Shown in pieces: positions 2,214-64,000 of a stretch of DNA of 64,000 nucleotides; the first letter of the stretch is position 1, and every line of letters begins with the position of its first letter. The notes beneath the pieces were generated by a model. The model saw nothing but the letters and a program-made list of their open reading frames with translations. It was not told the origin of the DNA and did no database searches. Location: contig JAODTK010005586.1 in assembly GCA_026419785.1 (NCBI GenBank), positions 91,360 through 155,359 on the forward strand, written 5' to 3'. Position numbers and translations under genes: made by a program. This stretch comes from Sclerodactyla briareus (lineage: Eukaryota; Echinodermata; Holothuroidea; Dendrochirotida; Sclerodactylidae).

Positions 2214-2215
<2 letters not shown>

Positions 2216-2246
<31 letters not shown>
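2216..2246. repeat. (TA)n microsatellite
   Basis: About 15 TA units in a row, visible directly. The open frames that run through it encode an Ile/Tyr run and are not genes. Confidence 0.9.
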
Positions 2247-2252
<6 letters not shown>

Positions 2253-2335
2253 TTTTTTTTAATGAGGGAAGTTATCTATTTATTGAATATGAAAATGGCC
2301 CATGTGACTTATGTATGTTTTTTTTTTCAGATAAA

Positions 2336-27140: not shown

Positions 27141-29830
27141 ACCTTCGCCACAATAGCATTTTCATCTCATTGGCGGTAACCATGAACAGGCTTATTTATT
27201 GCCAGATATTGTACAAAACCAAGTGTATTCCTGGAAAAAGTCCCTGAGTGGCCATCGATCTGGCAAGCCGCTTGGGTGTAGATGGGAGCCTTCATTTCGA
27301 CATGGGAACCTCCATATTCCGCCGAATTGATATCATTCCAGCTAGTATTCAAAGTCCATCGAGATATCTGTCGCTAAGTTAACCCAAATGTAAACATGTT
27401 TGTTTTTTGTTGCAACTGTTCAATGGCACGCTTGACATCATATATCACTCCTTCAGGTCTCTCCTGACTGTACCCCATCATTGCATGTCCTTGAACCCTT
27501 TGGCATGCTATTGACATTCTCAAGTACTCCAGTGAAGCCAGTCTGTGTCAAACCAGTAACCATCCGCCAAGAGTTCGTACCTTTTGCTTCATTATGACCA
27601 GACAACATTCTGCAGAGCTTGTTTTAGGACCTAGCATGAAATGGCTAATTTCTCTTGGTAATTCAGACCTTTCCCTCCAAAATTGTGATTCCAGTCTCAT
27701 TCCTAATGAACTTCTTACTAGTGCTGAAAGTAAAATACATAAAGAGCAAAGAATTTGGCAGCAACTTGGCGTTTAATTGTGTGGAGCATTAGCCATGTTA
27801 TAAATATAGCTCCCAGGCAAGTTAACCTGTCTGGATTGACGATAACATGTCGGCGGACAAAGCAAAACATCTCTCATCCAGGCACCGCGTTCTTGATGTC
27901 TCGTTTTCTCCCGTCCCCATGGACTATTGCTACGCAATCCTCGAAAAACACCTCCTTACTATGTTGTATAAACTGACAATTTTTTCAACTGCTGCTGCCC
28001 GCCCGCTGGCCTGCCTTGCCGCTTCTTATTGCTATGACTCAGTACACAACAACTAGCCGTGTCCAATAGCAGAGGACTCATTAATTGACAATCCTTTTTC
28101 TTGTGTGGGGGGGAGGGGGTGCTTTCCTGCCTTCCACGAATTTCCATGGCTAATTAAGAGAAGTGTTCGCAGATGGCTGGGAGACTACAACCTCTGGGGC
28201 TTACTGTCCTGGAGATACTTGGTGATTCATGATCAGTGTTAATCACCCCCCAAATTGCTTTGTTTCTTTCCAATGTACCTTAGGATGAGTTATCTTGGAC
28301 AGTAACAGTGCCTTGGTGTTTCCTCGCTGGGCATCCAAAGGGTCAAAAGAAGTAGTATAGGAGAGAGCAGATCTGGTGCTAGAGACACAATTCCTGTGGT
28401 TTCTTCTTTTGGGGGGAGGGGAGGGGTGGGGGGTGGGCCTGAATATGTGCATTGGGTTGGGCAGAGTGTCGAGGAAAATTCAGCTAAGTTAGGACCGTAA
28501 ATGACTAGAAGTGGTCATATGATCGTGGTTGATTTATGGCTGTCATGGACCAAATTTGATGCAGCTTTGGGGGTGGGGGTGGGGCTTAAAGAATTGGGGG
28601 TTCAAGCCCCCAGCCCCCTATTGAAACTGCACGGGAAGGGGGTGATATCATACAGGGTAACGGGGGAGGGTGTGTTAGAAAACTTGCAATATCTAATACT
28701 CTTTACCACCATCCTATTTCCAAATATTGAATGCCCTCTTCTGTTATAGAGCGTTTTACAGTACTGTTTAAAATAAACAAAAATCAATCTCTACTTGTGA
28801 TCAGATTCTCAGTGATTCCTTGAAAGTTATAGAGACTCTCAGAATTTCCTGCTGCATTATTTTCATGATCAAAAACATTCCATCCAGTGAATCAGAAGAG
28901 CTCCTATAACATAGAGTTAAATTACAACCAAAGACCTCATGACGCACTTATTGGGGAAATTTCCATTGGTATAAAAAGGGACTTGATTGGTTTGTTTTGG
29001 ATTTTGAGAATGTGACACAATGATGCAAGCATATCAAGTCTTAGAGTTTGAGGAGTATGAGACTGTTTTGCCCATGTATTAATAATCGGTAACAGATTAC
29101 GTCCATCTAGTATACTGTCCATGTAGCTACAGCAGGGGTACAGTGAAACATACTGTGTATTCAAAGTGCCTGAGGACATGCTCATTTTATGAATCTAGGT
29201 ACAGGATGATTACTGTATTCTTAAAGGGCCTCCGTGCTTCTACCCCCGACGCGTTTTCGAGTGTTCATGCTTCCATGATTGGACATATGGCTGGTGCTTT
29301 CACACGGATTATGGTTAGCCTCGGAGGCACACTTTGGTCGTAATGGGTCATTTGAAACGTTTCGTTGATACAAGTATGTAAATTTCTACCTTTTGCAGCC
29401 AATATGATTGCAATTGGTCAACCTTAGCTAGAGGGTGATCATATTAAAAATCCCAATTTCAAGCAGTTTTTTTGTGGCACGCTTTTTGTATCATTCAATC
29501 CATTTAAATTTGGGGTGAATTAGGTATTTTCGTTAATAGCGCTGTAATTGAACCATTATCGATGATGATATTATTATCGTTGTAATTATTACACACAGAG
29601 TAATTATATCCCCGCAACACTGTAAGTGTTCGGGATCTTATGTTTTGGCGTTGGTTGCCCGGCCGTCTCCGCCGCCGCCGGAATTTAGGCTTAGCGCTCT
29701 CATTCTTTAACAACTTCTCCGATTGACCCAAACTAGTACACATGTCCGTATGAGTAAAACTCTGATTCAGTTCGAAAATTGGGCTATATCTTATATTTGG
29801 TTTGCCCTCTATTTTGCAGGTTTTTCGCAA
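27141..29830. other. No gene recognised
   Basis: Unique-looking DNA with G-rich runs near 28105 and 28411 and GGGTGGGGGTGGGG near 28570. No supported exon. Confidence 0.4.
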
Positions 29831-29834
29831 ATTT

Positions 29835-32275
29835 CTTCATGTGGGTAGTTGTTGGAGCCCGAAAAACATGGTGACAATTTCAAGTTCATCCGAGGTCCAA
29901 GTTTGCATTTCTTTGGCCATTAGCTAATTATGCATAATGTAATGTTATATTCAACTTCATTGATGACACTGGTGAATCGGGCCAACTATCATGCCGATGA
30001 ATTTTTTCCCAATTTGGATGAGTCACTGGAGGTCATCTTGCATGCCTAATTTGCATAAATAGTTGGCCCAATTAGCAATTAGGCAAATTTCTAAACTTTG
30101 TGTGATCTTTCACCTCACGAACTTTGTGAGTAGGGACCTTCTAACAGTCCGATAAATTTATTACATTGCGTTGAAATCACTGAAGGTCATTATGTGTGTT
30201 TATATTTATTAATTTAAATATTCGTTAGCATAATTTAGAATAATTAATTGCAATTAATTACCCCAACTTTTCGGGATTTGACGAAACTGTTGTGAATCGG
30301 ACCTACGTCACCGATCCTGATAAATTTAGTCATAGCATCAAGATCAGGAGGTGAATTTGTTGGGCTAATTTGCATATTAGTTGTCCTGATCAGTCAAAAT
30401 GATGAGTTTTAAATCTTTTTTTTTCGCAATAACATTGAACATGTGCATTGGAATGGCATATGCTTCTAGGAGTTTATTCATCACATGGAGTGTAACAATT
30501 TTTATAAAGTCCGCCATGTCATTGAAGGTCATTAAAGTCACTTAGGGGTCAAAACTGAATTTTAGAGTACTTTTTCCGGCAATAGCACTGGGTGTGTTCA
30601 TCAGAATGCAAAATGCTCCTGGGAGTTAATGTATCAACATGGATAGTAACACTTCTCATAAATTCTGTCATATCATTAAGGTCATTCGGGGTCACTTAAG
30701 GGTCAAAAACTGTGTTGGGGCTATAATCGGAGAATTGAATATCTGCGAAGGCTGGATGGTTCACCATTGCTATATGATTGTTGACCGCTGCATGTGTGTG
30801 ACCTCTGACCTAATTTGACCTCTGTCGGGGGGTCATGTATGCTGAAGGTCGAATCTTGAAATCAAATGTGCTGAGTTAAGGAGTTACGGGCAAAAAAATA
30901 GAAACGGTTAATTTTAGTGTATATGTGATTGCTGCGTTGTGCTTTATTGATAGAAACAACTCCCGCTTCGATCGGTTACTTTGGTAGTTACAAGGGGTCA
31001 AAGTTCAAATTTTCTACCTTTTCGCAAATAACATATGGACATGTTCATTGGAATCAATTGCTCTATGGTTGGATGCATCAACATGGAGTGTACAATTTCA
31101 TAAAAACCTCCATGTCAGTGAAGGTCCAAGGTCACTTAGGGGTGAAACTGATTTAGTACTTTTTTCGGCAATAAAGCACGGGGGTGTTTCATCAGAATGC
31201 AAAATGCTCCTAGGAGTGGATGTCTCACGTGGAGAGTAACTTTCCATGAAATCTGTCATATCATTAAAGACCGTCTAGGTCACTTAGGTCAATAACTGTT
31301 TTTTTGGCTGTAAGCGGATATTGAATATCTCTGCGAGCTCTGGTTCCCATTGTGATATAATTGTTGACCTGCTGTGTGTGTGACTACTGACCTGAATTTG
31401 ACCCTTTCTGTGTCTGTGGGTGAAGTCCAAATCTGTGAAATAAATGTGCTTATGTAAGGAGTTACGGGTGCAAAAAAAATAGAAACTGTTTATTTTGTAT
31501 ATGTGAATTGAGATTTTTGTGCTTTATGAGAGAAAAAAACTCACCCTTCGATCGGACACTACTTTTGTAGTTTACAAGGGTCAAGTTCAATTTTATATAC
31601 CTAATTTTTCGCAATAACATTGGACATGTTCATTTGGAATGCCATAATCTTCTAGGGGTGGATGGCTCACATGGCGTGTAAAATTTTCATAAAACCCCGC
31701 CATGTCCATTGAAGGTCATAAGGTCACTTCACTTAGGGTCAAAACTGATTTTTAGTACTTTTCACGGCAATAGCACTGGGTGTGTCATCAGAATGCAAAA
31801 TGCTCCTAGGCTAGGAGTGGATGTATCACATGGAGATAACATTTTTTGCATTTCATGAAACTGTCCCATATCATTACCGGCATTCGAGGTCACTTAGGGT
31901 CAATACCGTTTTTTGGCTATAAGCGAGATTGATATCTGCTAATCTGGAAGGGTTCACCATTGTGATATAATTGTTGACCATGCATTGTGTGACCTCTGAC
32001 CTGGAATTTGACCTCTGTCTTGTGAGCCCATGTGTTTAAAGGCGAATCGTGAATAAATGTGCTTTATTTAAAGGTACGCACCTTGCCCGGGCTGTAGGGA
32101 TGCCTCCTATAATTAACAAGTTCATTATGGAATGACCCATTTACCGTAAACGTTGTCGCTTCACAAGTCTATAAATGTCTTCCTTTTCAAGATTTGGTCC
32201 GTTGCATTTCACGCAAATTCTTGAATCAGATGCGGGGATATATGTCTGGCGGGTTTACCGCCCGACATTTTCTAG
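29835..32275 (+). mobile_element. Helitron-like element carrying a 600-bp tandem array, plus orientation
   Basis: The 3' end is diagnostic: TGCGGGGATATATGTCT (32231), hairpin GGCGGG-TTTA-CCGCC, then GACATTTTCTAG ending at 32275 with T following, matching the Helitron rule of a 3' hairpin about 10 bp before CTRR and insertion before T. Inside, GAGTTACGGGCAAAAAAATA-type markers near 30880, 31460 and 32050 set a period near 600 bp. Each unit contains several AGGTCACTTAGGGGTCAAAA blocks. The 5' limit (a GGTCAAGTTTGCATTTCTTT region near 29.9 kb) is uncertain. No Rep/helicase frame exists, so it is non-autonomous. Confidence 0.75.
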
Positions 32276-32512
32276 TTAATTTTGTTTTCCCAATGTCCTG
32301 AACGTCCCTTTTGTATGCATTCATCGTCAAGACGGTAAATTTGTTTAAAGGATTCACAAGTCTTTTTCGGCCCTATCAAGGTCCTGGGCCGATAACCTAT
32401 AGATCGGCTACTGGGTCCTTACTCCCAGTTGGTGACGTTGTGACATCTAATTGGCTCATGTCTGCAGGTGTTTTCATTGTGGGTCCGTCACCACAATTGT
32501 AGTGCATCTTCG
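32276..32512. other. No feature recognised
   Basis: Short spacer between the Helitron 3' end and the minisatellite. Confidence 0.4.
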
Positions 32513-33615
32513 TTCATAGTTGTTCCCATGCTGTAGACCAGTAGAGACCCGACCTCTGGGATTTCCTCTGATACCTCTGTCCCGCGGCCTGTCAGAGGGG
32601 TGGTGGTATGATCCCTTGGGTGATGACGTAGACCAGTAGAGACCCTACCCACCCCCCCCCCCCCGCTGTGTATTCCCTCTGTTAACTGTACCTCTGTCCT
32701 GGCTGTCCGAGTGGTGGTGGTATGATCCCTTGGGTGATGGCGTAGACCAGTAGAAACCCGACCTCTGGTGATTACCTCTGTCCTAGTCTTGCGTTGAGAC
32801 GATTATTGTTTAGCGCTTCTTGGAGCTGGATTGTTCTTATCTTTCTACACAAAATATGAGCCCACCTGGCTGAAATAATCGTCTTGTCCAAATTACACAA
32901 ATGTGGACCACAAATGTGGACGTGGTCATTGAGAAGATTTATGTTTGAATTGTCAAGCGCTTGGAACAGCAATTCTCGATGTCAAGTGTGGTGACAGCTT
33001 ATACAGTCCAACCATTCCAACGGACATTTTTGAATCTCCGAGCGGGGGTGTGTTCCCTATCTTTGTTGTGATTTGGCCTCCCTCCATATTGAAAGGATTG
33101 CCATTTGGGGGGGGGGGGGAGGGGGGGACAAGACGATGATACAGATACAAACACGAACATATTGATGAGCACTGCAGAAATTCCGCATGTGTACATGAAG
33201 CCAGCAGGTATCGGGAATATCAAGTATCATCGTCTTAACACAAGACTAACCCTGACCCCTGTCCCAGCTTCAGGAGGGGGTGGTGGTATGTCCCTTGGTG
33301 GTGATTACGTAGACCAGTAAACCCGACCTCTGGTGATTCCCTCTGTTACTGTACCTCTGTCCTGGCTGTCCGAGTGGTGGTGGTATGAGCCCTTGTGTGA
33401 TGGCGTAGACCAGGAGAGACCCGACCTCTGGTGATTCCCTCTGTTACTGTACCTCTTTACTGTACCTCTTCCCGACTGTCAAAGTGGTGGTGGTATGATC
33501 CCTTGTGTGATGGCGTACACCAGGAGAGACCCGACCTCTAGTGATTCCCTCTGTTACTGTACCTCTGTCCTGGCTGTCCGAGTGGTGGTGGTATGATCCC
33601 TTGTGTGATAACCGT
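32513..33615 (+). repeat. Minisatellite, 95-115-bp unit, split by a transposon
   Basis: The unit includes GTAGACCAGTAGAGACCCGA, CCTCTGTTACTGTACCTCTG and GAGTGGTGGTGGTATGATCC. GTAGACC markers lie near 32533, 32628 and 32742 before the insertion, and 33308, 33404 and 33515 after it. The array is continuous if 32784-33249 is removed. Confidence 0.85.
32784..33249. mobile_element. TA-flanked palindromic DNA transposon (Tc1/mariner-like MITE) inside the minisatellite
   Basis: Left end TA|GTCTTGCGTTGAGACGAT and right end ATCGTCTTAACACAAGAC|TA are inverted repeats of about 19 bp flanked by TA, as expected for Tc1/mariner-type insertion. Each end is itself a smaller palindrome: AATAATCGTCTTGTCC (about 32873) inverts the left end, and GGACAAGACGATGATA (about 33118) inverts the right. 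No transposase is present. A poly-G run lies at 33109-33127. Confidence 0.75.
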
Positions 33616-33927
33616 CGGAACGTCCTGAATGTCTTCGAGCCCTCCCTTACTGTAGATTCGATAACAGAGATCTGTTTGCTAGACACACTGGACCTAATTT
33701 AGAAAAGTGCTGCAGTAGCTTTGTAGTTTCCGTTTGGCTGAGGTGGACTTCGTCTGCGAACAAGGAGTCTTCTACTTCACCATCCACGTATGTAGAGGCT
33801 GCAATGTTGTCAAAGTATTTACAAGCATCATTTCTATCTCACTGTTTTTATTCCTTGACGAAGTCAGAGGAATCTGTGTTAGTCATGATAGTGTGTGTGT
33901 GTGTATGTGTGTATGTAATGCTGGCTT
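33616..33927. other. No gene recognised; short (TG)n run
   Basis: GTGTGTGTGTGTATGTGTG lies at about 33891-33909; otherwise unique-looking. Confidence 0.5.
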
Positions 33928-34850
33928 GTTAACACGATAACTAGACCCCACCTGGATGGATGAAGCTCATACTTGGTATGTGTGTCCCCTGATGAGTACA
34001 TGAACCCTATTGTTTTGGGGTCAGGTCAGAGGTCAAAGTCTGAAAACCTTGTAAACACGATAAGTCCAGAATGGTTGGTCTGATCAGATTGAAATTTGGT
34101 GTATAGCTTTCTTATGGGGAGTACAGGAGCCGCCCTATGTTTTGGTTCAGGGCAGGGGGTGAATTTTGGTCCAAAATAGAACATTGTGAAAAGTCGATAT
34201 TTTGGCAAGTTGTCAACAGAGGGTTCCCCAAAGACTGAAAACCTTGTAAAACGATAAGTCCAGAATGGTTGGTCTGATCAGATTGAAATTTGGTGTATAG
34301 CTTTCTTATGAAGAGTACAGGGACCCTATTGTTTTTGGTTCAGGTTGGGGGTGAATTATGGTCAAAATAGAAAAAGTGTGAAAAGTCAATATTTTAGATT
34401 AGCCATTTTGGCTTGTAATCACGATAACTCAACCCCACCAGATGGATGAAGCTCATACTTGGTATGTGTGTTCCCTTGATGAGTACAACCCCATTGTTTT
34501 GAGGGTCATGTCAGATGTCATCTGAGGTCAACAGAGGTCAAAACCTTGTAAACACGATAAGTCCAGAACGGTTGTTTGTCTTATCAAGTTGAAATTTAGT
34601 GTATAGCATTCTTTTGGGGAGTACAGTACAAAATACAAAGTACAAAAGAGGAGTGCTATTTTAAGTTCACAAGAGGTCAGAGTCTGAAAACCTTGAAATT
34701 TAGTGTGTAGCTTCCTTATCAAGAGTAATGGAACCCTATTGGTTGGTTGGGGAAAAATGGGATGTAATGTTGCCCATAATGAGCTGGTACAATCTCCCCT
34801 TTGTCCTTTGTGTCTGGCTAGGTTGTAAGAAAGAGTCATGGAATCACTAA
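33928..34850 (+). repeat. Dispersed/tandem repeat, 'AACACGATAA' family, 486-bp period
   Basis: The block CACGATAACTxxACCCCACC with GATGAAGCTCATACTTGGTA starts near 33931 and again near 34417. Each is followed by AACACGATAAGTCCAGAA and TTGAAATTTGGTGTATAGC sub-units. AGGTCAGAGGTCA occurs at 34023. A single diverged copy is at 62140-62360. Confidence 0.7.
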
Positions 34851-34861
34851 GCCTTTTGGCT

Positions 34862-35226
34862 CTCTGGTCTGTGATTTTATATAAGATTAAGATTTGGGTT
34901 TATAGTCTTGTATCAAGGCAGCGCCTCTTCACACGACTAGTGACTTAATCCATTGGTCTTCGCGTAACCTGATGAAGACCTTGCCCTCACCACCCAGGGT
35001 GCACGTTCACTCCCATGACCTAATACACCCCTGGCAGCCAACGCAGCGGCGCCTACTTCCGTTACCTCGCAGGTACCCACTTTTACACGTGGGTAGCGTG
35101 CGTGAGACATTCGAGGACACATACCTTGTCTAACAGCACTGCGGAAAGCACTCGGCTTTCACTGGGATTCGAACTCGCAATCTATTGAATTAAAGTCCGG
35201 AGATCTACCGACTGAGCTGATTCGCC
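34862..35226 (-). mobile_element. tRNA-derived SINE (third family) abutting a LINE remnant
   Basis: On the minus strand the head reads AATCAGCTCAGTCGGTAGA (A box), then GGACTTTAATTCAATAG and GCGAGTTCGAATCCCAGT (B box, matching GGTTCGANTCC closely). The anticodon stem no longer pairs properly, so it is not a functional tRNA gene. A body of about 290 bp contains CACGTGTAAAAGTGGGTACC and GGGTGTATTAGGTCATGGGA, and ends in an AATCTTAATCTTATATAAA-type tail. Such elements are pol III transcribed and depend on a LINE in trans. It ends only about 10 bp from the ORF1 relic at 35236. Confidence 0.75.
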
Positions 35227-35235
35227 TCTTAACGT

Positions 35236-35870
35236 GTCAATGGTTGCACCTCAAACGCATTCCATGATTACATTTGCCATGGCAAAGTCCTTTTCAGATA
35301 TGTTCCGAAGTATAGAGTCCCCAACGTTGAACATCTTAGGGTTGGTCAGAATCGGCTGCGAGTGGTTTAATGCCTTGAGGGTCTGTGCTTACTCAAACGC
35401 GTTTTCCTCAGGTTGGTCCTCCGTTGGCGGATTTTCCCATATGTTTTGTATAGACGTCGTTCTCATTGTTAGGTCTGATAATCTCTTCTGCAGTTTGATG
35501 ATTTTTAAGAGACGGTTTGTAGTTCCTCTTGGATTGTTCGTAGTTGTCCAGGCGTTTCCGGACATTCGAACAAAAACCATCTTGGCTTTGGGCCCTTTGG
35601 ATCGGTGGACTTATCCAAACCGACGCATTGAATATGGTAGTTAATTCCCACCCCAGAAGTCGCAAATGACAGGCTTAGCTCCGTCTTCCAGTGGAAAAAC
35701 ACAATTGCTGTAGCACTCTGTAAGCTGGATTACTCTGGGATCGTTTGACTGGATGCACTCGAGGCGGTGAACTGTGTTATCAGTTTCCATGTCGGGTAAT
35801 GGTAGAGTTTGTCTACACTGTACTGGGTTAATAAATCCACATTGGCCTACTCCGCAGTCAGACACGTAAA
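35236..35870 (-). pseudogene. Decayed ORF1 of a CR1-like non-LTR retrotransposon (PHD finger, coiled coil, start of esterase)
   Basis: Reading the minus strand across frames: a Cys-rich stretch (35641-35865) with ECYSNC, PVICDFWG, then after a frameshift NYHIQCVGLD and PRWFLFEC; this is the C..C / C / H..C-V-G-L / W..C spacing of a PHD finger, with some zinc ligands lost. A Lys/Gln/Glu-rich, coiled-coil-like linker follows in shifting frames (35389-35600). Then comes PKMFNVGDSILRNI, whose GDS fits block I (nucleophile Ser) of SGNH esterases. PHD, coiled coil, esterase is the known order in ORF1 of CR1-like elements, which bind RNA and assist retrotransposition. At least two frameshifts, and a stop shortly after the esterase start, make it dead. 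No reverse transcriptase is nearby. Confidence 0.6.
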
Positions 35871-38240
35871 AAAAATTGATTCAAATTCAAAAGGTCTCCA
35901 ATCCCAGATGATAAAAATGAAATGAACAAGTAATCCAGCATCGTAAAAAGGCTGTAAACATTGTTAAAAAATGGATGATAGAATGTGTCAAATATAGAAG
36001 ACTTCAAATTGTGAAAATAAGAGGTCCTGTTCCTGAGCTTGACGTTCCTTTCATGGGTTGCCGCTTGAGTTCTGATTCAGCTTGGTTCAGCGGCACAGTT
36101 GGCAATATTCATTGCAAACATTGATAGATATCGTAATGTAGGCAGTTAAATTCTGGTTACAGCTCGTCTACCTGGTAAAAAAAAACACATGCCTAACTTC
36201 TCCAATGACCAATAGGTATGTAATTATCTAGTGTTAACAATGGGCCTGATGTTAGCCTACTGTGCGTGGTTATCATAACCTATTGCTTCGTGCATTGTTC
36301 TGGGTCTAATTCGCAGCCCCATTCGAAAGTTTTTTTGGAAGTTCCCAGGCAGTATTTAGAAGATAGTTACAAATATTCTCTGGAAGATTCAACATCATTA
36401 ACATATAGACCTACTTTCCATCAATGCTGTTAACTTATTGCAAAACCCTGAGTGCTTGAATGCTTTAGCCAGAGAGCAGTCCAGGAGTCATTTGGACTCC
36501 TCATTCTAGATTGCTACATATGTGTTCACCTTACGTACAAATTTAATGGAACCACCTATTTGGACAGCCTGTACCCACCATCCTGGATAATCCCCTGGAA
36601 AAACACCAACCGTGAGGGCTGGATCCTTATACATTCTTTCATGGACCACCACCTCTCGTTGAGAATGCTAGTACTTGGAACAAATCTCCCTCTCAAATCT
36701 CCCTCTCCCACTTGACCTGCCTGCAATCCCTTTAAAATTTTGAACAAGACCCAAACGGTTGTCGTGATTCCTTGCATAGCGACAACTAGTGGCTACTAGG
36801 CCAAACTGAAAACTTGTATCACCCTCATTGGATATTGTCGGTTTACTTAAAATTAATTTTCTATATATTTGCACACTTTTTTCAATATTATCTTGCTTTC
36901 CTTCCTCTGCCCTCCCCTTCCTTCTGCTACTTTTGTGAACCAAATGACCTCCTCATTCACCAAGTATTATTCAATTCTGACGAAGTTTGAAAAATCTGAA
37001 AAAGTATCAAATTTAACGCTCCAGATGACTTCAAAATGACCCTGACATTTGTCAGGAACAAATGAAGTCCTCATTCGGCAATTTTTGTTCACATATGTAA
37101 TAGGGCAAACTTCAAATTTCGCACATTTAATTATGCACATTATGGGCTTAACATACATACAAGAGTCATATGGGTCAACCAATGGTATTGGCAACATACA
37201 GTCTCCAGTCTCCAAAAATAACCATAAAAACAGAATTTGGCCCAAAAATTAGACGTTTTGTGTGGAGAAAACCCATTATGTACAACCGATGGTTTCAACA
37301 TTAAAGGAACGAACTCCTCCTTTGACTCGCCCATTGGGGGTCCTGACCCCTTCCCCCTCCCGACCCCTTCCCCCGGTGGCCCTTCACTCTTGGCATGGCA
37401 TAATGAGAATAGTATTCAACAATATACTAAATTTCTTGACAAAACCTAAAACATGAAAAGGGATCTAGCTTCCTCCCTAATGCATACTAAAGGGGCTCGA
37501 CTTCTCCCAGCATGCACATGAACCTTTCTCTGATAACTTCAAAATTGTGAAGAGATTCAATCTGGCAGTATAACTCCTCTGATTTTAATGTTATGCACCC
37601 ACGCAGAGAGTCAGCAGATTGTAATATAAAGCAAGGGGAATCAGATCCGAGAGCATGGCATTACATGAAAGACCCGGTAGATACATAAATAAAGATTGAG
37701 AATCACATGGTAAACCAGTACAGCCATAACATCTTAGGCCTAGTTCTCACCCACATGAAAACATAGGCTGCATTTGAGTTTACAATCCATATCCGTTTAG
37801 GTCTATGCTAAGGCTTTAACGTTAGGCCAAATTTTGTATGACTACACAACAACCTATGCCTGCTGCCTGGCTAGCACAATTACGATTTGGTTGGATGGAT
37901 TGTATACACCCAAGTCTATGAGTTCTCAATCTGGAGACAGAGCACATGAATCAGGAGCACAGGAATTCGAACACAAGGGAGGGGGGCTTAATTGGACTGT
38001 CATTTCTATATAGGCCTGACTTATTTTGCTCCTTTTGCTGGTGCTCACAGACTGACTACAGGGATCAACCCTCTCTCAACGTGCCACACACAGATTACTC
38101 CGTATTTACACTCAATTTGCACATGGTGAGGCTCGATTACATAAACAGATAAATGTTGTTCTTAGTATTGGACCTACGCCCAATTTGCAAGTTGCCCAGA
38201 AGGTTAACTGACTGTCGGACCTGGTTTAAGGGTAGTTCAA
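35871..38240. other. No gene recognised
   Basis: Unique-looking DNA. Overlapping short frames on both strands near 36452-37456 have no recognisable domains. Confidence 0.4.
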
Positions 38241-40225
38241 CTAGAAAGTGTCGGGCGGGTAAACCGCCCAGACATATAATCCCCGCATCTCTTATTCAAG
38301 AATTTGGTGGACATGAACCCGGACAATAGTCGTGGAAAGAAGACATTATACCACTGTTGAAGAGGGACAAGTGTACAGGAAATGGGTCATTAATACGTGC
38401 ACGGGTAATTTTGAGGCACCCCTACAGCCCCGGACACGGGCGTCCGAAATAAGCACATTTATTCAGATTCGACTTTAACCACATGGACACTGACAGAGGT
38501 CAAATCAGGTCAGAGGTCACACACATGAGGTCAAAACAATTAATCACAAATGGTGACACCGATCAGCCTTCGCAGATATTCAATTCTCCGATTATAGCAA
38601 AAAACAGGTTTGGACCTAGTGACCTCGAATGACCGTCAATGATATGACAGTTTTTATGAGAATGGTTACTCGCCATGTGATACATCCACTCCATGGAGCA
38701 TTTTGCATTATGAGAACACACCCCAGTGCTATTGAGGAAAAAAGTACTAAAATCAGTTTTTGACCCCGAAGTGACCTTTAATGACCTTCATGACATGGCA
38801 GTTTTTATGAAAATTGTTAAACTAAATGTGAGCATCCACTCCTGGAAGCATATGGCATTCCAATGAACATGTCCCAAGTTATTGCGAAAAAAAGGTATAA
38901 AATGAAGTTAGTTTGACCATTGTAAAATACCAAAGTAAGTGTTCGATCGAAGCAGGAGTTGTTCCCTCATAGAGCACACAAAGCTATATCACATATCAAA
39001 AATAACCAGTCCAGTTTAGATTTTTTTTGCCCGTAACTCCTTAAATAAAATAAGCACATTTATTAAGATTCGACCTTATTTAACACAGGAACACCCGACA
39101 GAGGTCAATAAGGTCAGAGTCACACTCACCTGCAGGTCAACAATTATTCACCCAATGGTGAACCATCCAAGCCTTCGAGAAATTCAATTCTCTGATTATA
39201 GCCCAAAATCAGTTTTTGACACCTAAGTGACCTCAATACCTTTAATGATATGCCAGTTTTTTATAGTTGAAAATTTAGATTTCCTCTCCAGGCGATACAT
39301 CCACTCCTAGGGAGCTTTTGCATTCTGAATGACACACCATTGCTATTGTGCCATAAAAGTACTAAAATCAGTTTTTGACCCCTAGTGCCTTTAAATGACC
39401 TTCAATGACATGGCGGACTTTATAAAAATTGTTACACTCCATGTGATGCCACCCTTCTAGCTACATATTGCATCCAATGAACATGTCCAATGTTATTGCT
39501 AAAAGTAAAAAATTTAACTTTGACCCCTTGTAATACCAAATAAGTGTCCGATTGAAGCGGAGTTGTCCCCCCCATAAAGCAAACAAATCTCTCTCACATA
39601 TCCAATGACCAGTTTCTATTTCTATTTTTATTACCCGTAACTCCTTAAATAAAATAAGCACATTTATTCAAGATTTGCCCTTTAACCACATGACCATCCA
39701 GCCTTCGCAGATATTCAATTCTTCTATTATAGAGCCCAAAACAGTTTTTTGACCCCTAGTGACCTCGAATGACCTCAAATTGATATGAACAGTTTTATGA
39801 GAATTTTAATACTCTCCATGTGATACATCCCGTCCCAGGAGCATTTTGCATTCTGATGAACACACCCAGTGCTATTGCCGAAAAAGTTAACTAAAATCAG
39901 TTTTTGACCCCTAAGTGACTCGATGACCGGTCAAATATATGACAGTTTTTATGAGAATTGTTTACTCTCCAGTGATACATCCCTCCCAGGAGCATTTTGC
40001 ATTCTGATGAACACACCCAGTGCTATTGCCGAAAAAGTACTAAAATCAGTTTTTGACCCCTATTGACATTTAATGACCTTCAATTATCATGGCGGTTTTA
40101 TGGACATTAGTTTACAACTCCATGTGATGCATCCACTCCTAGTCGCATATTGCATTCCAATGAACATTCCATGTATATTGCGCAAAAGTATTAAACTCAT
40201 CATTTTGACTGATCAAAAAATCTCA
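38241..40225 (-). mobile_element. Helitron-like element carrying a 600-bp tandem array, minus orientation
   Basis: The 3' end lies at the left: CTAG at 38241 after host A, then AAAGTGTCGGGCGGGTAAAC, CGCCC, and ATCCCCGCATCT, the inverse of the 32.2-kb terminus, including the hairpin and CTAG followed by T on the minus strand. Interior units are marked by AATAAGCACATTTATT near 38450, 39048 and 39650, a period of about 600 bp, each with repeated TTTTTGACCCCTAAGTGACC. The last 200 bp before the array align with those of the plus-strand copy. The 5' end is not recognisable after 40.2 kb. Confidence 0.75.
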
Positions 40226-40718
40226 AAATGCAGCAAAATAAGTTGACCGAACCTGTCCAGCAGGCTGTCCAGTTGGAACTGGATGCTTCCTTGTACATAG
40301 TTTCTGACTGAGATGTACCCAATGTCTATTCAATTAAGTGGAAGCACAACTGAAGGTAGTATTAAGCGATGTGAAACATCGGCCCCTGCCCCCGTCATCC
40401 ACTAGACCCACACTCTCGCCAACCTGAACCTTCCCACCTTACCCGACCCACCAACCCTCCCCCCCCCCCACCCTCCCGTTAGCAATCCTTTCATGAGTTC
40501 TCATACGCACGTACGACAACATAAAGCGCACTGGAATTTTTGGATTTTACAGTATACGATCTCGTGTAATTATAATAAAAATATTTCCCCAATCACAATC
40601 CTAGAGCATGTTTTCTGCATCGAATGAATCAACGTGTGACAGTTCCCAATAGCACAGGGCTACCGGACGGCGTGATTTCATTGATAGCTGTGGTATTGAA
40701 CTGTTGATTCAGCATTGG
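40226..40718. other. No gene recognised; C-rich run
   Basis: C-rich run near 40458-40474. Part may be the body of the tRNA-related unit that follows on the minus strand. Confidence 0.4.
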
Positions 40719-40787
40719 TTTATGCGGACTCGAACCGCTGGCATTCGATCTAGTGATTTACAAATGTCTCAACCAGTGCTGGCTAAT
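40719..40787 (-). mobile_element. tRNA-like SINE head
   Basis: Minus strand: TTAGCCAGCACTGGTTGAGA resembles an A box and GGTTCGAGTCC at 40726-40736 is a perfect pol III B box, about 45 bp apart. The cloverleaf stems do not pair well, so a tRNA-derived SINE or tRNA pseudogene is more likely than a working tRNA. Confidence 0.5.
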
Positions 40788-43700
40788 TGACATCTTTGGG
40801 CTTTGACTTTCTGGTGCATTAACTCTTCCCATATTTCTCCACTCTCCATATAAAATACATCAGAGCCTACCGCGAGTGACAGACCGGCTGCATTCAATTC
40901 TCAGACATCGGCTGTTTTTCCGAATACCTTCCTTTTCAAGTGATTTTTTTCTCTTATAAAATTTGGAAACATTTAGACATCATGTAGTGTTTCAACCTAT
41001 CACAGTTACAGCGAGTTCGGTATCAGAATTGGTCCGATATCGCATGATTGGAATCGGTATCAGTAAATTGCCCATCGAAAAGTTCTACATAAACATACAA
41101 AGAAAAAAAAAAAAAAAAGATGATTGTCAAACCTTTAGAGCGACCTACCTGGAACAATTACTGCTCAAAATGACCGACTGTCGATCGCTAAATATCGTGT
41201 ACGCTGATTGCTGAAACAACAATGTTTTGTAGTTTGCTTGCTGCATGTTTTCGGCACGTAGCCCCCCTCTCCTTTCCGATAATTGCAACTCCCACTGAAC
41301 ACATCATTCACTGCAATGTACAATTAGCCTACAACAGCCCAATTAAAACTGCATGCATGCTGTTACGTAACGATTGCCTCAATTTAGCATAAATACCGAA
41401 TCAAATCACAACCTAAATTTGTTGTAAATTTGATAAAAACCATTGCTAAAGCTGTTAATTACAATTCTTGCTCCGATTATTCAGTAAAATAAGTCCATTT
41501 GATTGAAGGCGTTGTATGTAGGACCTACCAACTAACAGTTGATTTTACAACAAATCGGCGCTCCCTGATCCCCGTGTTCCGAGATTCCGTCCTAACTATG
41601 TGTCAATACAAAATCCCATTGTACGTTATGTGAGCGAAGCGATCTGATGTGAGCGACCGTCTAAAATTCATAGCAAGATGTAGTGCATGCATAACCGTGT
41701 TGGTCTATATGAATCATGTGTAGTTGACGACCTATGGTGTATGCACTCGGATGAACGAGCATGTAGCGCTCGCACTTGGATGCGGGGATATTTTCTTGCT
41801 TCTGTGTAATAGACTGTACTGTGGAAATCGAACTTGGGAGTCCAGTTTTATGTCATGAGTGTAGTTTTAGAGACTCGACAAACATGCAGGATGAAGACCG
41901 CAGCAAAACAAACTTTTAATAGTAAATCCCTTTTGAGTGACCATTCGTAACAGGTGCCTGGTCGTTGTTTTTTGGGTCCAGAGCGGTCAGGTTTTTGTCC
42001 GGCGCTAGCTTTCTGTCCGGCGCTTGTGGACCATTTCAATTTTTGTCCGGCAGCGCGCCGCACAAAACCCGTAGTGGAGACACTGCTGCTATAACTGCTG
42101 TTTGTTCGTTCAGCGTTTCGAGCAAATTCAAAAGTTTGGCATTACACCGGTGTAGAATATTTGAGCAATCATCACATGTCTCCCATTTGCTTTGACTGTG
42201 CTGGCTGTTTCAAAACACCTGAATGTTGTATTGAAAGGTTCATCACTTATGCTCACAGTTGTAAAGTCAACTTTGAGTAGTTTAACTCATTGCAATGCCA
42301 TGGAGAGGTGATGGCCATGAGCATGCTTTGTTACTATTAAAAGAGACACAGTCGCAGGTGTGCATTACACCCAATGACAGGCGAGTGCATTTGACATGTG
42401 TATTGTACCAGAAGCTCACTGCTAGTTGTGTTTACGTCTAATTGGATTGTCCCCCATTTAGGTACTGGGATGATACAAAAAGTCATTTGTAAATGCCTGG
42501 CAGGTAGACATGGAAAAGTGAAAAACGCATGACTATTCTACATACCAGTGCCGGTTCAGTCGGATTGCTGGGGTCATAACCAAGATTATGTAAGGAGAAA
42601 CCCTTTGAAGCGAGCAAGGAACAACCACTATGTGATTCCTGATTTTACTGGGGATTATTTCTGCTGGTAGTATTGATGCTCACCATTGGCCTGTTGCTAA
42701 CTGGTGCTGGGGGCCTTGTTTGTATTCCCATTAAAATTGATAGGACAGAAACCACATGAAATTGTGGATCCATTCCTTCCTGATCTATCAGTGGGGATTT
42801 GACTTGCTCAGCAGTGTCTTGGGAAACTTGTGAAGCGCCCAATCAGTTCATCATTCATGGTATGAATATTCAGGGGCTTCACTGCCGATTCGACTGTTCA
42901 AAACCACACTGTGCAGTGTGCGCATGCAAAGGATTGAGTTGTTGTCCCTAGGGAGTGCGTTTATATTACAAAGTCAAGTGTAACTCACATGTGATGGTTT
43001 AATGTAATCTCATGAAGCAAGCAACAGCCAAATGAGTACTTGGAATCAGACCTTTGTGATTGCAAACACCCCGAGGCGGGACTAGGAGGTACTTGAAAAC
43101 TGCATCATTTGTAACAAAAGTAGCGAGACTTTTACACACAGATGGATCATTGATGTATAGATTATTAGTGCAGAAAGGCTCACGTGGTGCTAGATGAGTG
43201 GACAGAAAAAGAAAAAAGCAAGAGTCACTTCAGCTAAACTTGGATTATGGCCATTTAGTTTTCAGAATTTTAAATTTTGTCTAATAATGATTGGGTTATT
43301 AGGGGTTGAGGTCTAGAAAGCTCATATGCGTGATATCTTTTCTGTATGAAATGTGGTGGGCTCACATTTGGCAGGAGGTTGGTCATATATGGAGAAGGAT
43401 AGATGACTTTTGGTCTGTCATATGTCAGCCAAGGTAAAAGTTTATAACTGTGATAGCTCACATGTGTTACAGAATGGAGGTATGATAATTAGGGCTGATT
43501 CCCGTTTCTTTCAGGTTCAGGAAATTAGTCGTTTGAGGTCAGGAGCAGTCCGTTAAAATCCTAGGATTAAACAGCTGGGCAGTGGAGTGCTTGGAATGAA
43601 TGTTGATGATGTATCATCCAAAATATTAAACCTAATGAAGAAGGATAAATGTTTAGGTATAAATTGAAAGAAAATTTAAATTCTGAGCTGTTATGTTTGT

Positions 43701-43810
43701 TGGTAATGGAATGCTATTGCACTTCATATTCGTTTTTAAATTATATTCACTGGTAATGGTTACATGGTACAGATATCATTTTATTTGTTGATCATTCCTT
43801 TTTTTTCCAG
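40788..43810. other. Mostly unrecognised DNA
   Basis: Poly-A at 41104-41118. Between about 41970 and 42060 the word TTTTTGTCCGGCGC or close variants recurs three to four times. At 42650-42760 the plus strand has a hydrophobic frame (LFLLVVLMLTIGLLL...) after a stop codon, while the minus strand has an exon-like frame with a GTGAGC donor (about 42690-42832). I could not decide for either. Confidence 0.35.
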
Positions 43811-44006
43811 ATGCGAAGGGCAAATGTTCTCGATGAGTCTTCAGTTTCCCAAGACTACTCTTCCTGATGCACAGAGGTTCATGCCTTCAGAGGGAGGTAG
43901 CACAGCAGTTGGTCAGCTAATCCTTTCAAATGGCAAATCTGAAAATAGCCCGGCCTTGTATGGTCTTTCTACCTATAGCTTGAGTCAGTTTAACAGCATG
44001 AAATAA
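43811..44006 (+). CDS. Candidate terminal coding exon of an unknown host gene
   Basis: A textbook acceptor (CCTTTTTTTTTCCAG ending at 43810) is followed by an open frame of about 64 codons that enters with one base of a split codon and ends at TAA (44004-44006). The translation, with CEGQMFSMS near the start, GGSTAVGQL in the middle and SQFNSMK at the end, has the balanced Ser/Gly/Pro composition of a disordered C-terminus. I do not recognise the family. No AATAAA signal is obvious directly downstream. Upstream exons on the plus strand are not identified; a weak acceptor at 43514 precedes only a short frame. Confidence 0.45.
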
Positions 44007-44009
44007 TGA

Positions 44010-44747
44010 CTAGGTACCGTTAACATATACGGGCCAACTAACGCAACTTTACACAAACTTAGACGACTCATGCTCACGAACTCAGGATTGCCTGAGCTTG
44101 TTCTCTGCAGGTTCGTCTATGGTTTATTTTAAGTTTCAGTTTCAGTTAAAGGGGGGGGGGCTCCCAAAAATTGTCCTGAGCATCCCCCCCCCCAAAGTAA
44201 TTAAAAACCAAATTGTCGTGGAATGCATCTATAACAAGGGTGCCAGCCTACCTGGAAAGAGTCATGGAATTTGGAAAACAGATGCTTTAAAATTCTAGAA
44301 AGGCAGGGGGGAATTTGAGGCAAAATGTTTCAGATCCTGGCAAAACCTCTGGAATTGGATTGGCAAAGACAGGACAAGGAAGACTTGTTTGGCTATGATG
44401 GCGTTTTAGTGTTGCTTAGGTGGTTTGGTTTTTTTTTTGGTAAAACTAGATGGGAAACTAAAGAATCTCTGCATTAAAATTGCCCTAAGGGAATAGTGAC
44501 ATTTTGAAATTTCATATGATAAAATAGGAAAATATCATGGAATTCATTCTTTGGAATTATGGGTACCCTGTTATGTATTCCTGCTGAGTAGGCGCAATAT
44601 GCTATGAATGCAAAACATATGAGCATACACATTAACACCTTTCATTTGACTTATAGACCTATGTGCCTGCTCCGAACATTAAAAAAGATGGGGCCCAGGC
44701 CTATCACAGGTCACAGACACATTCCACGTGATGTTTCCTTCTTATTT
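44010..44747. other. No gene recognised
   Basis: Poly-G at 44151-44160 and poly-C near 44185-44193; otherwise unique-looking. Confidence 0.4.
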
Positions 44748-44748
44748 T

Positions 44749-47522
44749 GTCTCGCCCTGAACTTTGTTCAAGGAGATGACATAGTGGTCACTTATTGTGT
44801 GTTGTCTGTGGTCTGTCTGTCCGTCTGCCTGTCCGTAGTGCGGTTGATATTCTCCTGTGAACCGTGGAAGCCATCCTGCTGGGACCTTCTTGTGGAGGTG
44901 CGCTTTGAAGAGTTGCCGAGGTTGTGTCATCACTTTTCGTCCCAAAGACCATTCTCATTTGCATAACATTTGTCATATTTAATGAAAATTGGCCCGGAAG
45001 CTTGTTGTGTACAAGATACGCTCTTGATCGGTTAGAGCATTGGTGATGCCGTCAGGGATTTATAAAAACTATTAAGAGTACACAAATCGATCAGATTCCT
45101 GGCATGATATATAGCTAATTAAGTAGTCTAACTTGCTTAATTCTGACGAGAATTTTTGAGTTTGTTGGAGTTTTGAAGAAACTGGTGGAGATGGTAGCAT
45201 AGGCCCAATGAATGTTACAGTAGCGAAGAGGGCCCCAGAGGTCATTTAAGTTTACTAATCTGTCATTCCAGGTCACTTAGGGGTCGAAAAACTGTTTTAT
45301 GGCATATCGGAGAATTGATCCGTGAAGGCGGAGGTTCCCCATTTGATAATTGTTGACTGCATGTGTGGACCTCTGACCTCAATTTGACTCTGTCGGGTGG
45401 GCATGGGGTTTTAAAGGTGAGTCTTGCTAAATGTGCTTATTTAGGAGATACAGGCAAACAAAAAAATTGGAAACTGGGTATTTGGATATGTGATAACCTT
45501 GGGGGGCTTTATGGGAGGAGACCAACTCCCCGCTGCGATCGGACACTTGGTAGTTACAAGGGGTCAAAGTTGTAATTTAATAGTTTTTCGAATATAACAT
45601 TGAGCGTGTTCAGTGGAATGCAATATGCGTCCAGGAGTGGCAGTGGATGCATCACATGGAGAGTAAGTAACAATTTTTATAAAAACCGCGTTGTCATTGA
45701 AGGTCACAAAGGTCACTTAGGGGTCAAAACTGATTTTAGTACTTTTTGGCAATTAGAATGGGCATGTTCATCAGAATCAAAAATGCTCCTAGGAGTGGAT
45801 TGATCACATGGAGAGTTACAATTTTCATAAAAAACTGCGCCATGTCATCAAAGGGTCATCAAGGTCACTTAGGGGTCAAAATCTGTTTTGTTGCCATAAT
45901 CGGAGAATTGAATATCTGGAAGGCTGGTAGGTTCAACTATTGTTGATATAATGTTGACATGCATGTGTGTGACCTCTGACATCAATTTGACCTCGGTCAG
46001 GTGGTCATGTGTTAAAGGTTAGGGTGAATAAATGTGCTTATTTAAGGAGTTTACGGGCCAAAAAAATCAGAAATGGTTAGTTATTTTTGGATATGGGATA
46101 GACATTGGTTGTGCGCATGTGAGGAAACCAACTCCCGCTGCGATCGGCCGCATAATTTGGTAGTTACAAAGGTGTCACAACAAAGTTTAATTTAAAGCTT
46201 TTTCTGCAATAACATTAGGCATGTTCATTGGAATGCAATATGCGCCTTCTAGGAGTGGATGCAGCACATGGAGAGTAACAAGTTTATATAAACCCGTAAT
46301 GTGTCATTGAAGGTCATCAAAGTCACGTAGGGTAAAAAAACTGATTTTAGTACTTTTTGGCAATAGCATGGCATGTAATCAGAATGCCACAAGAATTTGC
46401 TTCTAGGAGTAGATGTATTACAGGGAGAGTTACAATTTCATAAAACTGCCATGTCATTAAAGGTCATTCAAGGTCACTTAATAGGGGTCAAAAAATGTTT
46501 CTGGCATATCGGAGAATTGAAATCTGTGAAGGATGGAAGGTCCCATTGTTATATAATTGTTGACCGGCATGTGTTGTGAACTCTGACCTCAATTGACTCT
46601 GTCGGGTGGTCATGTGGTTAAAGCGTTGAGTCTTGAATAAATGTGCTTATTTAAGGGTTACGGGCAAAAAAAATAGAAACTGGTTCTTTTGGATATGTGA
46701 TAGACCTTTTGTGCTTTATGGAGGGGACCAACTCTTGACCGCTTCGATCGGACTTGACTTCGGTAGTTACAAGGGGCCAAAGAGCTTTTTCACAATAACA
46801 GTGGGCGTGTTCATCGGAAAGGCAATATGCTTCTAGGAGCGGATGAATCAAATGGAGAGTAAGCACTTTTATTAAAGCCGCCATGTCATTGAATTTCTCA
46901 AAGGTCACGTAGGGTCAAAAACTGATCTTATTACTTTTTTGGCATCGCACTGGGGCATGTTCATAAATGCACAAATGCTCCAGATTGGATATATCACAGG
47001 CGAGTTTACAATGTTTCATAAAAACTGCCATGTCATTACAGGTCATCAAAGGTCACTTAGGATTCAAAAACTGTTTTCTGGCCATATCGGAGAATTGACT
47101 ATTCTTGTGAAGACTGGAAAGGTTTCCCATTGTGATATAATTGTTGACCTGCATGTCTGTTACCTCTGACCTCAATTTGACCTCTGTGGGTTGGTCATGT
47201 GGTTAAAGTGTAGTCTTGAATAAATGTCTTTATTTAAGGAGTTATGGGCAAAAAAAATAGAAACTGGTCTTCTTGGTTTGTGAATAGACCTTTGTGTGCT
47301 TTATGGAGGGACAACTACCCGCTTCGATCGGACACTTACTTTGGTAGTTTACAAGGGGTCAAAGTTTAATTTAATGCCTTTTCGCAATACATTGGGCGTG
47401 GTTCAATGGAATGCCATATGCTTCTAGGAGTGGATGCTCAACATGGAGTGTCACAATTTTCTTAAAAACCGCTATGTCATTGAAGGTCATCAAAAGGTCA
47501 CGTAGGGGTCAAAATGTGATTT
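44749..47522 (+). mobile_element. Helitron-like element: 5' hairpin plus 600-bp tandem array, 3' truncated
   Basis: The start GTCTCGCCCTGAAC with TTGTTCA forms a hairpin, followed by GACATAGTGGTCAC, as at 21624 and 47525. From about 45.25 kb the same AGGTCACTTAGGGGTCAAAA units as at 30-32 kb appear. AATGTGCTTATTTAAGG-like markers near 45428, 46029, 46636 and 47220 give steps of about 601, 607 and 584 bp. The array breaks off where another Helitron 5' hairpin starts (47525), so its own 3' end is missing. Confidence 0.7.
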
Positions 47523-47524
47523 TT

Positions 47525-48160
47525 GTTTCGGCCTGAACTTGTTCAAAGATAGACATAGTGGTCACGTTGTCATTACACCTGCAGTAGCTCTGGTGTGTGA
47601 GATAGCTGGGGTGGGGGTGGGTGGAGTACTCCCTTGGGATAGCTGGTATTAAATGGAATCTTATGGGTGACACTGACTATATACATACAACTTCATAGAT
47701 AGGACCAGTTTTCAGCTAGATCCTGGTCTACCTTTATCTCGCCAAAATGTTAACATGAAATCAAGGCTCACTAGGGGTTATGTAGTGTTTATAAATTGCT
47801 TCATTCATCCAATTTTTCAAGTTTGGTTGAATTCCAAGAAATGTATTAAGTGTGTTCACCATTTTGTCTGAGATAGGTGACTGATAATGGTCTCAAAAGA
47901 AAGTTGATTATTGTCCTATTTGCATACTTTAGGCAATCCTAGTCCCCTTTCCACAAAATTATATTAGCACATGTCAATAATCAGTCCTTTATGGATTTGA
48001 AATGGTCACTGATTATTAGGGCGTTTCTGTCAATGCTAATACCAGACTCTTAAAGCAACTCATTAAATGCCTCTTAATTGTTTGCATAGTGATTAATATA
48101 TGAAAACACTGATGGCGCAATCGGCGAGAAACTGGGGGCGGTCGCCTTTTTTATTCCTCT
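47525..48160 (+). mobile_element. Short Helitron-like element with a GGGGGCG-type 3' end
   Basis: It starts GTTTCGGCCTGAACTTGTTC with the hairpin and GACATAGTGGTCAC of the shared 5' end. The interior (GGTTATGTAGTGTTTATAAA, TTCAAGTTTGGTTGAATTCC, TTTGCATACTTTAGGCA) matches 51.9-52.3 kb. It ends near 48150 with GGGGGCGGTCGCC, a small hairpin, then a T-run. No coding content. Confidence 0.6.
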
Positions 48161-55531: not shown

Positions 55532-56387
55532 CTGTTGCTACATGCTCCTCAACATTTTATCCTGAGCCTGTCGTAATTCTTAATGGTTCTCAACCTTTGG
55601 GGAGGCAATATTAGGTTGCTGCATCATGCTGTTTCCATTCCTTAATGCAGTTTTGGTATCATTTATGTATTCAATCATGGGGGTAGCAAGGATTGGCTAA
55701 CTATAGTCAGGCCAGGAATGGTTTCTAATTTAATGGCCTACCCATTTATTCCTGGTAAAGGGATCTGAGGTGCTCTGAAGTGATAATATATGCCCAAAAT
55801 CCAGCAGTGTTGTAGTATATTCGACCTTTCCCAGGCCCAATATGTAATGAAGATGACTCATGGAGGATTAGCTCAAGAGCAGTTTTTTACCAACACTGAA
55901 CAAAAATGTGGCATACTTTGGGGTCACATGGGGCTACACCACTGCTTAACCATGTGTAACATTGTTATTATTCCGATTGGCATCACGGATTGTTGACAAT
56001 GACATGACACGTACCAAGTGTCGAGGGAGATGAGTGGGGGGGGGGAACCATCTGAGCTAGTAATCTAGTAGATGATATGCAGTAACTAGAAAGAGGGATA
56101 CAGGACATAGGTTCAACTTTCATGGGACGCTGCCGGTAGGTGGATAAAATGGAAAGATTCAAGTGGGCGGACTTCTCCAAGCAGTTTACTACTATAATTG
56201 TGAATAATAAATTACTCCTCTGGGGATCAAGTACATTATGTAATATTGGTATAACCAGTGGGCAACATAGGATGATTGCCAAGAGTTCAAAGTATAAGGA
56301 ACTAGGGCAGTATAGGTTAGATTATGCCAGAATTATGCCAATCTATGCACGGGTAAATACAAAGACAGTGGTGACTTATCCGCTGGG
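55532..56387. other. No gene recognised
   Basis: Poly-G at about 56037-56046. No supported exon; the plus-strand frame from 56140 runs into the minisatellite. Confidence 0.4.
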
Positions 56388-63688: not shown

Positions 63689-64000
63689 GTATTTTCATCA
63701 CGATTTTGTATTCCTAGGTATTGTCATCACGATTCTGTGTTCCTAGTATTGTCATCACGATTTTGTATTCCTATGTTGTCATCATGATTTTGTATTCCTA
63801 GGTATTGTCCATCAGATTTTGTATTCCTAGGTATGTCATCACGATTTTGTATTCTAGGTATTGTCATCACGATTCTGTGTTCCTAGAATTGTCATCACGA
63901 TTTTGTATTCCTAGGTATTGTCATCACGGTTCTGTGTTCCTAGGTATTGTCATCACGATTCTGTATTCCTAGGTATTGTCATCACGATTCTGTGTTCCTA
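63689..64000 (+). repeat. Minisatellite, 29-bp unit, continues beyond window
   Basis: The unit is TTGTCATCACGATTCTGTG + TTCCTAGGTA, with alternating variants CGATTCTGTG and CGATTTTGTA. About 11 copies are visible, several with single-base losses, and the array is cut by the window end. Confidence 0.92.

Follow-up and report, generated by a model that had tools for sequence, protein, structure and literature searches.

Among described satellites that travel in rolling-circle transposons, the closest to those treated here are the HINE satellites of oysters. The Cg_HINE elements of Crassostrea gigas combine a 5' subterminal inverted repeat (subTIR), an inverted repeat, a microsatellite, a short central array of fixed orientation and a 3' subTIR with a palindrome, and make no target-site duplication; each satellite cluster has one consistent pair of flanks, and the targets are TT-rich (PMC7492417; a further source on oyster HINE satellites is PMC11136912). 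Two scenarios have been published for how satellites come to lie in such elements, namely capture of a satellite that already existed or growth from the element's own sequence (PMC7492417). The DNA examined, called the window throughout, is a stretch of 64,000 nucleotides from the sea cucumber Sclerodactyla briareus (contig JAODTK010005586.1, positions 91,360 to 155,359), in which three blocks share one satellite unit of about 594 bp. Very probably the blocks represent two families of non-autonomous elements of the Helitron2/Helentron group (HINE-like) with a central satellite array, F1 accounting for blocks 1 and 2 and X for block 3.

The likeness to Cg_HINE extends over all the structural features just listed. 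Unlike Cg_HINE, one unit here serves two families in two phases, and F1 sits between A and T and ends in CTAG (PMC7492417). F1 further resembles proto-Helentron-Pi of Phytophthora infestans in its 5' TT, 3' CTAG, insertion between A and T and lack of a target-site duplication, but the latter is a protein-coding element of about 14 kb with a Helitron-like structure, whereas F1 is non-coding and has subTIRs, a 5' hairpin and a satellite (PMC4067079). Elements of the Helitron2 group (PMC3627910) have their target between TTTT and T or C (PMC5148889), as compared to A and T for F1. Similar in structure are the DINE-1/HINE elements of flies and mites, which have subTIRs, an inverted repeat, a microsatellite, central repeats and, like X, T-rich ends (PMC4067079). 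The kind of element is thus known from oysters, while the composite structure of X and the sharing of a satellite between families are new here; a literature search, with the body of most listed papers as well as subscription journals and Repbase outside it, found no published satellite present in two HINE families and joined via an internal 5' end.

Self-comparison of the window places the blocks at 30387-32071 (forward), 38447-40215 (reverse) and 45262-47527 (forward), mostly 74-84% alike (E down to 0), and bears out the claim of an earlier, sequence-only reading that one unit of about 600 bp occurs in all three, once inverted. Blocks 1 and 2 also have in common the 3' segment and the hairpin/CTAG end (30831-32277 against 39695-38239, 76.7%), block 2 being the inverted one, so that the 3' end ascribed to two blocks stands. 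The same reading had taken all three blocks for one element family with three to four units per element and a 5' end at 29835, and these parts had to be given up: block 3 belongs to X, with different ends and a different unit phase; 20 fetched F1 copies hold 0-5 complete units plus one partial; and the first element starts at about 29604, its subTIR, 5' hairpin and CCG repeats having been missed. At about 77% identity and with many indels, blocks 1 and 2 would be poor substrates for the inversion that had been envisaged between them. The unit itself, a profile of 594 bases derived from 26 full units, is made up of two sub-repeats (A and B, about 146 bases each, 85.6% alike) followed by about 300 bases of different sequence. 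Scans of the window for tRNA genes and Rfam families gave no match.

The F1 copies of the window are laid out as follows.

29604..32275, forward: F1 copy 1, Helitron2/HINE-like, both ends present, two full units and a partial one; 5' TTATATCCCCGCA after A (29603), 3' CTAG before T
29604..30419, forward: F1 left (5') module; 29835-30419 aligns from near its start in 17 of 22 copies, and the part before 29835 was found by aligning those 17
29605..29616, forward: 5' subTIR TATATCCCCGCA, exact reverse complement of 32231-32242
29611..29634, forward: 5' hairpin, an inverted repeat paired with the subTIR; -8.1 kcal/mol, z -3.07, matched by 1 of 200 shuffles
29658..29681, forward: microsatellite of the 5' module, CCG-rich and shorter than in most other copies
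30420..32071, forward: satellite array of copy 1; units 30420-31018 and 31019-31604, terminal partial unit 31605-32071
32072..32275, forward: F1 right (3') module; 749 candidates with 32080-32276 as query, the best 40 matching at 80% or more
32231..32242, forward: 3' subTIR TGCGGGGATATA
32242..32268, forward: 3' hairpin, 7 nt upstream of the CTAG end; -9.9 kcal/mol, z -3.22, matched by 0 of 200 shuffles
38241..40215, reverse: F1 copy 2, 5'-truncated and inverted, with an extra B sub-repeat

In copy 2 just the last 20-40 bp or so of the 5' module are left before the array, and neither F1 copy of the window contains an open frame of at least 120 aa.

Searches of the genome were made in a single assembly of 319 Mb in 3171 contigs, of which the window is part of one contig, and the copy numbers given are first-look candidate counts. 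The best 40 of the 749 candidates match over most of the 3' query at 80-100%; 20 of the 39 places outside the window were read with their surroundings (L009-L028), which together with blocks 1 and 2 gives 22 F1 copies. In every one of these the array stops at unit position 450-466, is followed by the 3' module and keeps the same orientation; the number of complete units varies from 0 to 5, some copies holding one partial unit only and 7 of the 20 fetched copies having no complete unit that passes the cut. The left module could be traced from close to its start in 17 of 22 copies and reaches further 5' than 29835. The element begins with TTATATCCCCGCAACACTGTAAGTGTTCGGGGATAT followed by CCG repeats and ends with TGCGGGGATATATACGTCTGGCGGTTTACCCGCC(C)GACATTTTCTAG, and the 12 bases TATATCCCCGCA come back, reverse-complemented, immediately before the 3' hairpin, with 12 of 12 positions matching in the window copy. 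CTAG is exact in 19 of 22 copies, L012, L024 and L028 deviating. The hairpin/CTAG-type end expected by the sequence-only reading bounds all 22 copies; they were retrieved via that very end, so this bounding is no test of it, and the converse test is the search with the unit described below.

The insertion site of F1 was proposed to be A^T, and the flanks agree: the base before TTATATCC is A in 18 of the 19 copies with a placeable 5' end (12 of 13 among good matches only), position -2 varies (10 A, 6 T, 3 C), and T directly follows the 3' end in 22 of 22, the degenerate-ended L028 included. When the joined flanks of 17 copies were compared with 276 kb of loci and the window, one match crossed the junction, that of L018 to the paralogous L024 (168 of 213 columns, 79% alike). 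The occupied site has the sequence TGTTGATCA[element]TGTC, its empty paralogue TGTTGATCA-GTC; nothing is duplicated, and one base, the T, is missing from the empty site. As a separate observation, L018 (C2980:346500-356400) has two F1 5' ends, at about 1440-1660 and about 3500-3700, at a similar place in two copies of one host repeat, which looks like a tandem duplication that included the F1 element.

Block 3 lacks both F1 modules and lies within a separate element of its own.

44743..48152, forward: X element (composite HINE) around block 3
44743..45262, forward: X left module, with T-rich end, subTIR TGTCTCGCCTG (one extra C in the window copy), hairpin (z -2.11, matched by 7 of 200 shuffles) and TCTG repeats
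45262..47520, forward: satellite array in X, entered at unit position about 262 and left at about 144
47521..47565, forward: second, internal X 5' end, directly after unit CTGATTTT; 87% to 44745-44791; L041, L044 and 19 of 20 further loci agree
47566..48152, forward: X right module, with degenerate 3' subTIR (CGGCGAGAA) and end GGTCGCCTTTTTT

The left flank (44740-45262) as query gave 1395 candidates and the right flank (47524-47700) 288, the best 40 being scored in each case; four places found with the left flank were read (L041-L044). In the window copy, L041 and L044 (3 of 3) the left module is followed by satellite entering at about 262 and leaving at about 144 and then by the right module, while L042 and L043 have the left module and part of the right module around other interiors, with only short or diverged unit-like pieces. 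X starts with TTTTTGTCTCGCCTGAACTTTGTTCAAGGAGA and TCTG repeats and ends with CCAGGCGAGACACTGGGGGGCGGTCGCCTTGTT; its 11-base inverted repeat (5' TGTCTCGCCTG, 3' CAGGCGAGACA) is perfect at either terminus of L042 and L043 and, in the other three of the five copies, altered but recognisable; all five copies have terminal T-runs. On the structural grounds of this inverted repeat and the T-rich termini, X is a HINE. The interior of the X copy in L043 (C2454:739000-745000, 1841-3211) is a different tandem repeat of about 310 bp, pieces related to which occur at 33927-34483 of the window and in L020 and L046.

Central to the composite nature of X is that its satellite is directly followed by another X 5' end (...GGGGTCAAAATCTGATTTT|TGTTTCGCCTGAACTTTG). 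The upstream side was read at 20 of the best 40 right-flank matches, where the match to the unit profile ends at 142-150 in 18; in L048 it runs to 179, but with CTGATTTTTG at the junction this locus can be counted too, giving 19 of 20. The internal 5' end passes the pattern in 19 of the 20 and is recognisable by eye in the exception, L061. L042 and L043, with their other interiors, have no internal 5' end, and the right module of L043 is alike from GTCAGGTTA on, approximately where the 45-base copy of the 5' end stops in the composites. We read the composite as an internally deleted derivative of X that inserted into a T-run of the unit and was later mobilised with the X 5' end upstream.

Whether the satellite exists free of these elements bears directly on the proposal that rolling-circle-type elements carry and disperse it. 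Of 1969 candidates found with the unit as query the best 40 were scored, and their 143 matches were grouped by hand into 39 arrays, to which the following counts refer. The last unit stops at 438-464, as in F1, in 30 arrays, and those at C2975:32 kb and on C2389 likewise stop as in F1 in the fetched loci, giving 32 of 39; the F1 3' module was seen directly beside 7 of these 32, the other 25 being assigned by phase only. For the remaining seven arrays the right flanks of all and the left flanks of two were read. F1 3' sequence follows after a deletion at three of them, on C3076 (by eye), C2495 and C2900:64 kb (a 40-base match only). In total 38 of 39 arrays among these best-scored matches can be tied to F1 or X, 25 by end phase alone, which supports the proposal; free arrays may exist beyond this capped set, the more so as assemblies tend to lack long satellite arrays. 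By comparison, the CgiSat series of C. gigas likewise has many monomer lengths, including 622 bp (CgiSat06), and a Helitron context, but 1 of 11 inspected satellites was exclusively associated with an element (PMC8268682).

As for the class of the elements, F1 and X share features with several groups. The 5' TC of canonical Helitrons is absent, F1 starting with TTATATCCCC (TT) and X with a T-run. The canonical CTRR end, with a hairpin about 11 bp upstream of it, has its counterpart in F1 only (CTAG in 19 of 22, the hairpin ending 7 nt before), X ending in GGTCGCCTTGTT, and insertion at A^T without target-site duplication is likewise confined to F1, with the sole empty site lacking the T. Asymmetric subTIRs of 8-15 bp, as in Helitron2, Helentrons and HINEs, occur in F1 (12/12 in the window copy) and in X (2/5 exact). 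A 5' hairpin and a 3' palindrome are both present in F1 (z about -3), and X has the 5' one (z -2.11), the 3' fold of its window copy not exceeding shuffles. X has terminal T-runs, which may reflect a T-rich target, and F1 has the flanks A and T. The central array keeps its orientation in 22/22 F1 copies and, in X, in the window copy, L041 and L044; the pairing of one satellite with one pair of flanks, as in Cg_HINE, does not apply, the unit being in both F1 and X. The subTIRs, 5' hairpin, microsatellite and central satellite array make the elements HINE-like by structure.

It might be supposed that a single canonical Helitron family carries all three blocks, as the common unit, the CTAG and hairpin of blocks 1 and 2 and the A and T flanks might suggest. 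Block 3, with other ends that have many relatives in the genome and with its own unit phase, argues against this, as do the TT start, subTIRs and 5' hairpin of F1, which do not support canonical Helitron membership; for block 3 a shared element is ruled out by the unit phase and the internal-5'-end junctions, and the supposition as a whole is scarcely credible. Improbable, though less remotely so, is an ordinary satellite with elements merely inserted beside or into pre-existing arrays. Long satellite arrays are under-represented in assemblies, X has apparently inserted into a unit, and the array at C3092:125 kb shows no F1 or X sequence on the one side read and is so tied to neither family; yet 32 of 39 arrays end at unit position 438-464, six of the other seven show F1 or X sequence, and orientation is constant in 22 of 22 F1 copies. 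The two-family HINE-like reading, in turn, has several observations to its disadvantage. Strict A^T insertion would call for a T that the single empty site, only 79% alike, does not have; shuffled sequences fold as well as the 3' end of the window X copy (z 0.21); and the arrays on C684 and at C3092:106 kb carry the X left module with different exits, while on C1271 the X right module is represented by a 61-base piece alone. Further, no intact autonomous partner was found, the Rep domain PF14214 giving three matches on two contigs and PF05970, the PIF1 helicase domain, one match with two stops, all of them fragmentary. Interrupted Helitron Rep-like open frames lie at C2413:103101-103575, with a following stretch that is endonuclease-like by eye only, and the 97.5-115.4 kb read around this remnant contain no F1 end and no X 3' end; around C2926 the reading covered 1.5 kb per side. 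About 5.5 kb upstream of the C2413 remnant, on the same strand, is a diverged (67-70%) X-type left module (L045 108-386, that is C2413:97607-97885), which may be there by chance, given the abundance of the module, or may belong to an old X-related autonomous element.

The origin of the double 5' end in X is a narrower matter. Recombination or template switching between X copies inside satellite, in place of insertion of a deletion derivative, could also have produced it; exchange between sub-repeats A and B is seen (L054 and block 2), and X arrays with other exits occur (C684). The junction of L054, the one of 20 that ends at 287, at the matching place of sub-repeat B, also tells against the insertion reading, and the junction list, ranked as it was by likeness to the window copy, leans to composites. 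Against recombination stands that the internal copy begins at the terminal T-run and sits in the TTTT of the unit, as insertion predicts, and we consider such recombination rather unlikely while giving it real weight.

Under the HINE-like reading with a deletion derivative, the mechanism is drawn from the ends of the elements and from what is known of the group. Transposition is presumed to be by rolling circle, a Rep/helicase supplied from elsewhere nicking the 5' end and replicating the strand up to the 3' hairpin, with insertion at A^T for F1 or in T-rich DNA for X, and the array would travel as cargo with its orientation and phase fixed. An internally deleted X copy would have inserted into TTTT near unit position 144, and mobilisation from the upstream X 5' end would then have taken along the satellite between the two 5' ends; the junction itself is seen, and the order of the steps is our inference. 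After passage between families the F1 and X units would have diverged separately, and duplication within single elements also makes arrays longer or shorter.

The relationships among units are consistent with such a history. A tree of 56 rows separates 48 F1 units from 7 X units at 100/97 (bootstrap not settled, correlation 0.867), and a single passage between the families is enough to account for it; with its midpoint root, the tree does no more than suggest the direction from X to F1. The diverged unit-like piece of L043, whose interior holds a 70% relative of unit positions 445-592, falls on the X side. For 51 units over the first 440 columns, the mean distance is 0.133 within elements vs 0.145 between them. 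Of 45 units from multi-unit elements, 22 have their closest relative within their own element, vs a mean of 1.8 and a maximum of 8 in 2000 shuffles; L013 and L028 have complete units that differ by 2-6%, two of those in L013 by only 2.1%; and L012 (C2975:29500-39400) has a new period of about 860 bp, made of the unit and the last 250 bases or so of the left module, with units 4-6% apart. Arrays therefore also grow inside single elements. Ancestry of terminal as against internal units is unclear (33 of 51 vs 26 in shuffles, with a maximum of 38 in 500). Relative to the majority sequence, substitutions amount to 0.080 and indel events to 0.033 per site, a high indel share for which assembly error may be partly responsible, and for this reason no ages are drawn. 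Taken with the published scenarios, the X junction looks at base level like an event of the capture type, while L012, L013 and L028 represent growth inside single elements; the X copy in L043, with its other interior, holds a diverged relative of part of the unit, and one genome may show the two together.

It is tempting to carry this further, and we do so tentatively: the satellite may have passed between two rolling-circle types with different ends (A^T/CTAG vs T-rich) when a deletion derivative inserted into the array and the two were mobilised together from a 5' end upstream; with its two 5' ends the composite would then have become a successful family in its own right, and both families may also scatter arrays of nuclear-receptor binding sites. 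The last point stems from the motif AGGTCA, which we take to be a nuclear-receptor half-site. It occurs 15-19 times per block vs about 1 expected, compared with 54 vs 33 in the rest of the window, and at 5.87 per kb in sixteen F1 elements vs 0.83 in their flanks; the interiors of X in L043 and L042 have 5.4 and 3.5 vs 0.6 and 0.5 downstream, the downstream count being one in each. AGGTCA is thus about 7-9 times denser in both families than in the flanks, in part arranged as direct repeats: in the majority sequence of the unit, as judged by eye, spacers of 1, 4 and 5 separate directly repeated copies of AGGTCA and its near variants, an arrangement that would presumably suit nuclear receptors. 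Conservation of the half-sites was tried as proof of function and rejected (0.938 vs 0.912 for columns lying outside a wider set of half-sites, so barely higher, with 227 of 5000 random block sets as high). A literature search for Helitron satellites with nuclear-receptor sites found none naming 'helitron'. Helitron-borne heat-shock elements in Caenorhabditis are a precedent, not evidence (PMC6927752).

Finally, the window holds other tandem repeats: a 34-bp minisatellite of about 29 diverged copies (20509-21486), a G-rich minisatellite with a period of about 52 and about 23 copies (56385-57739), and a 29-bp tandem repeat that runs up to the end of the window (63689-64000).

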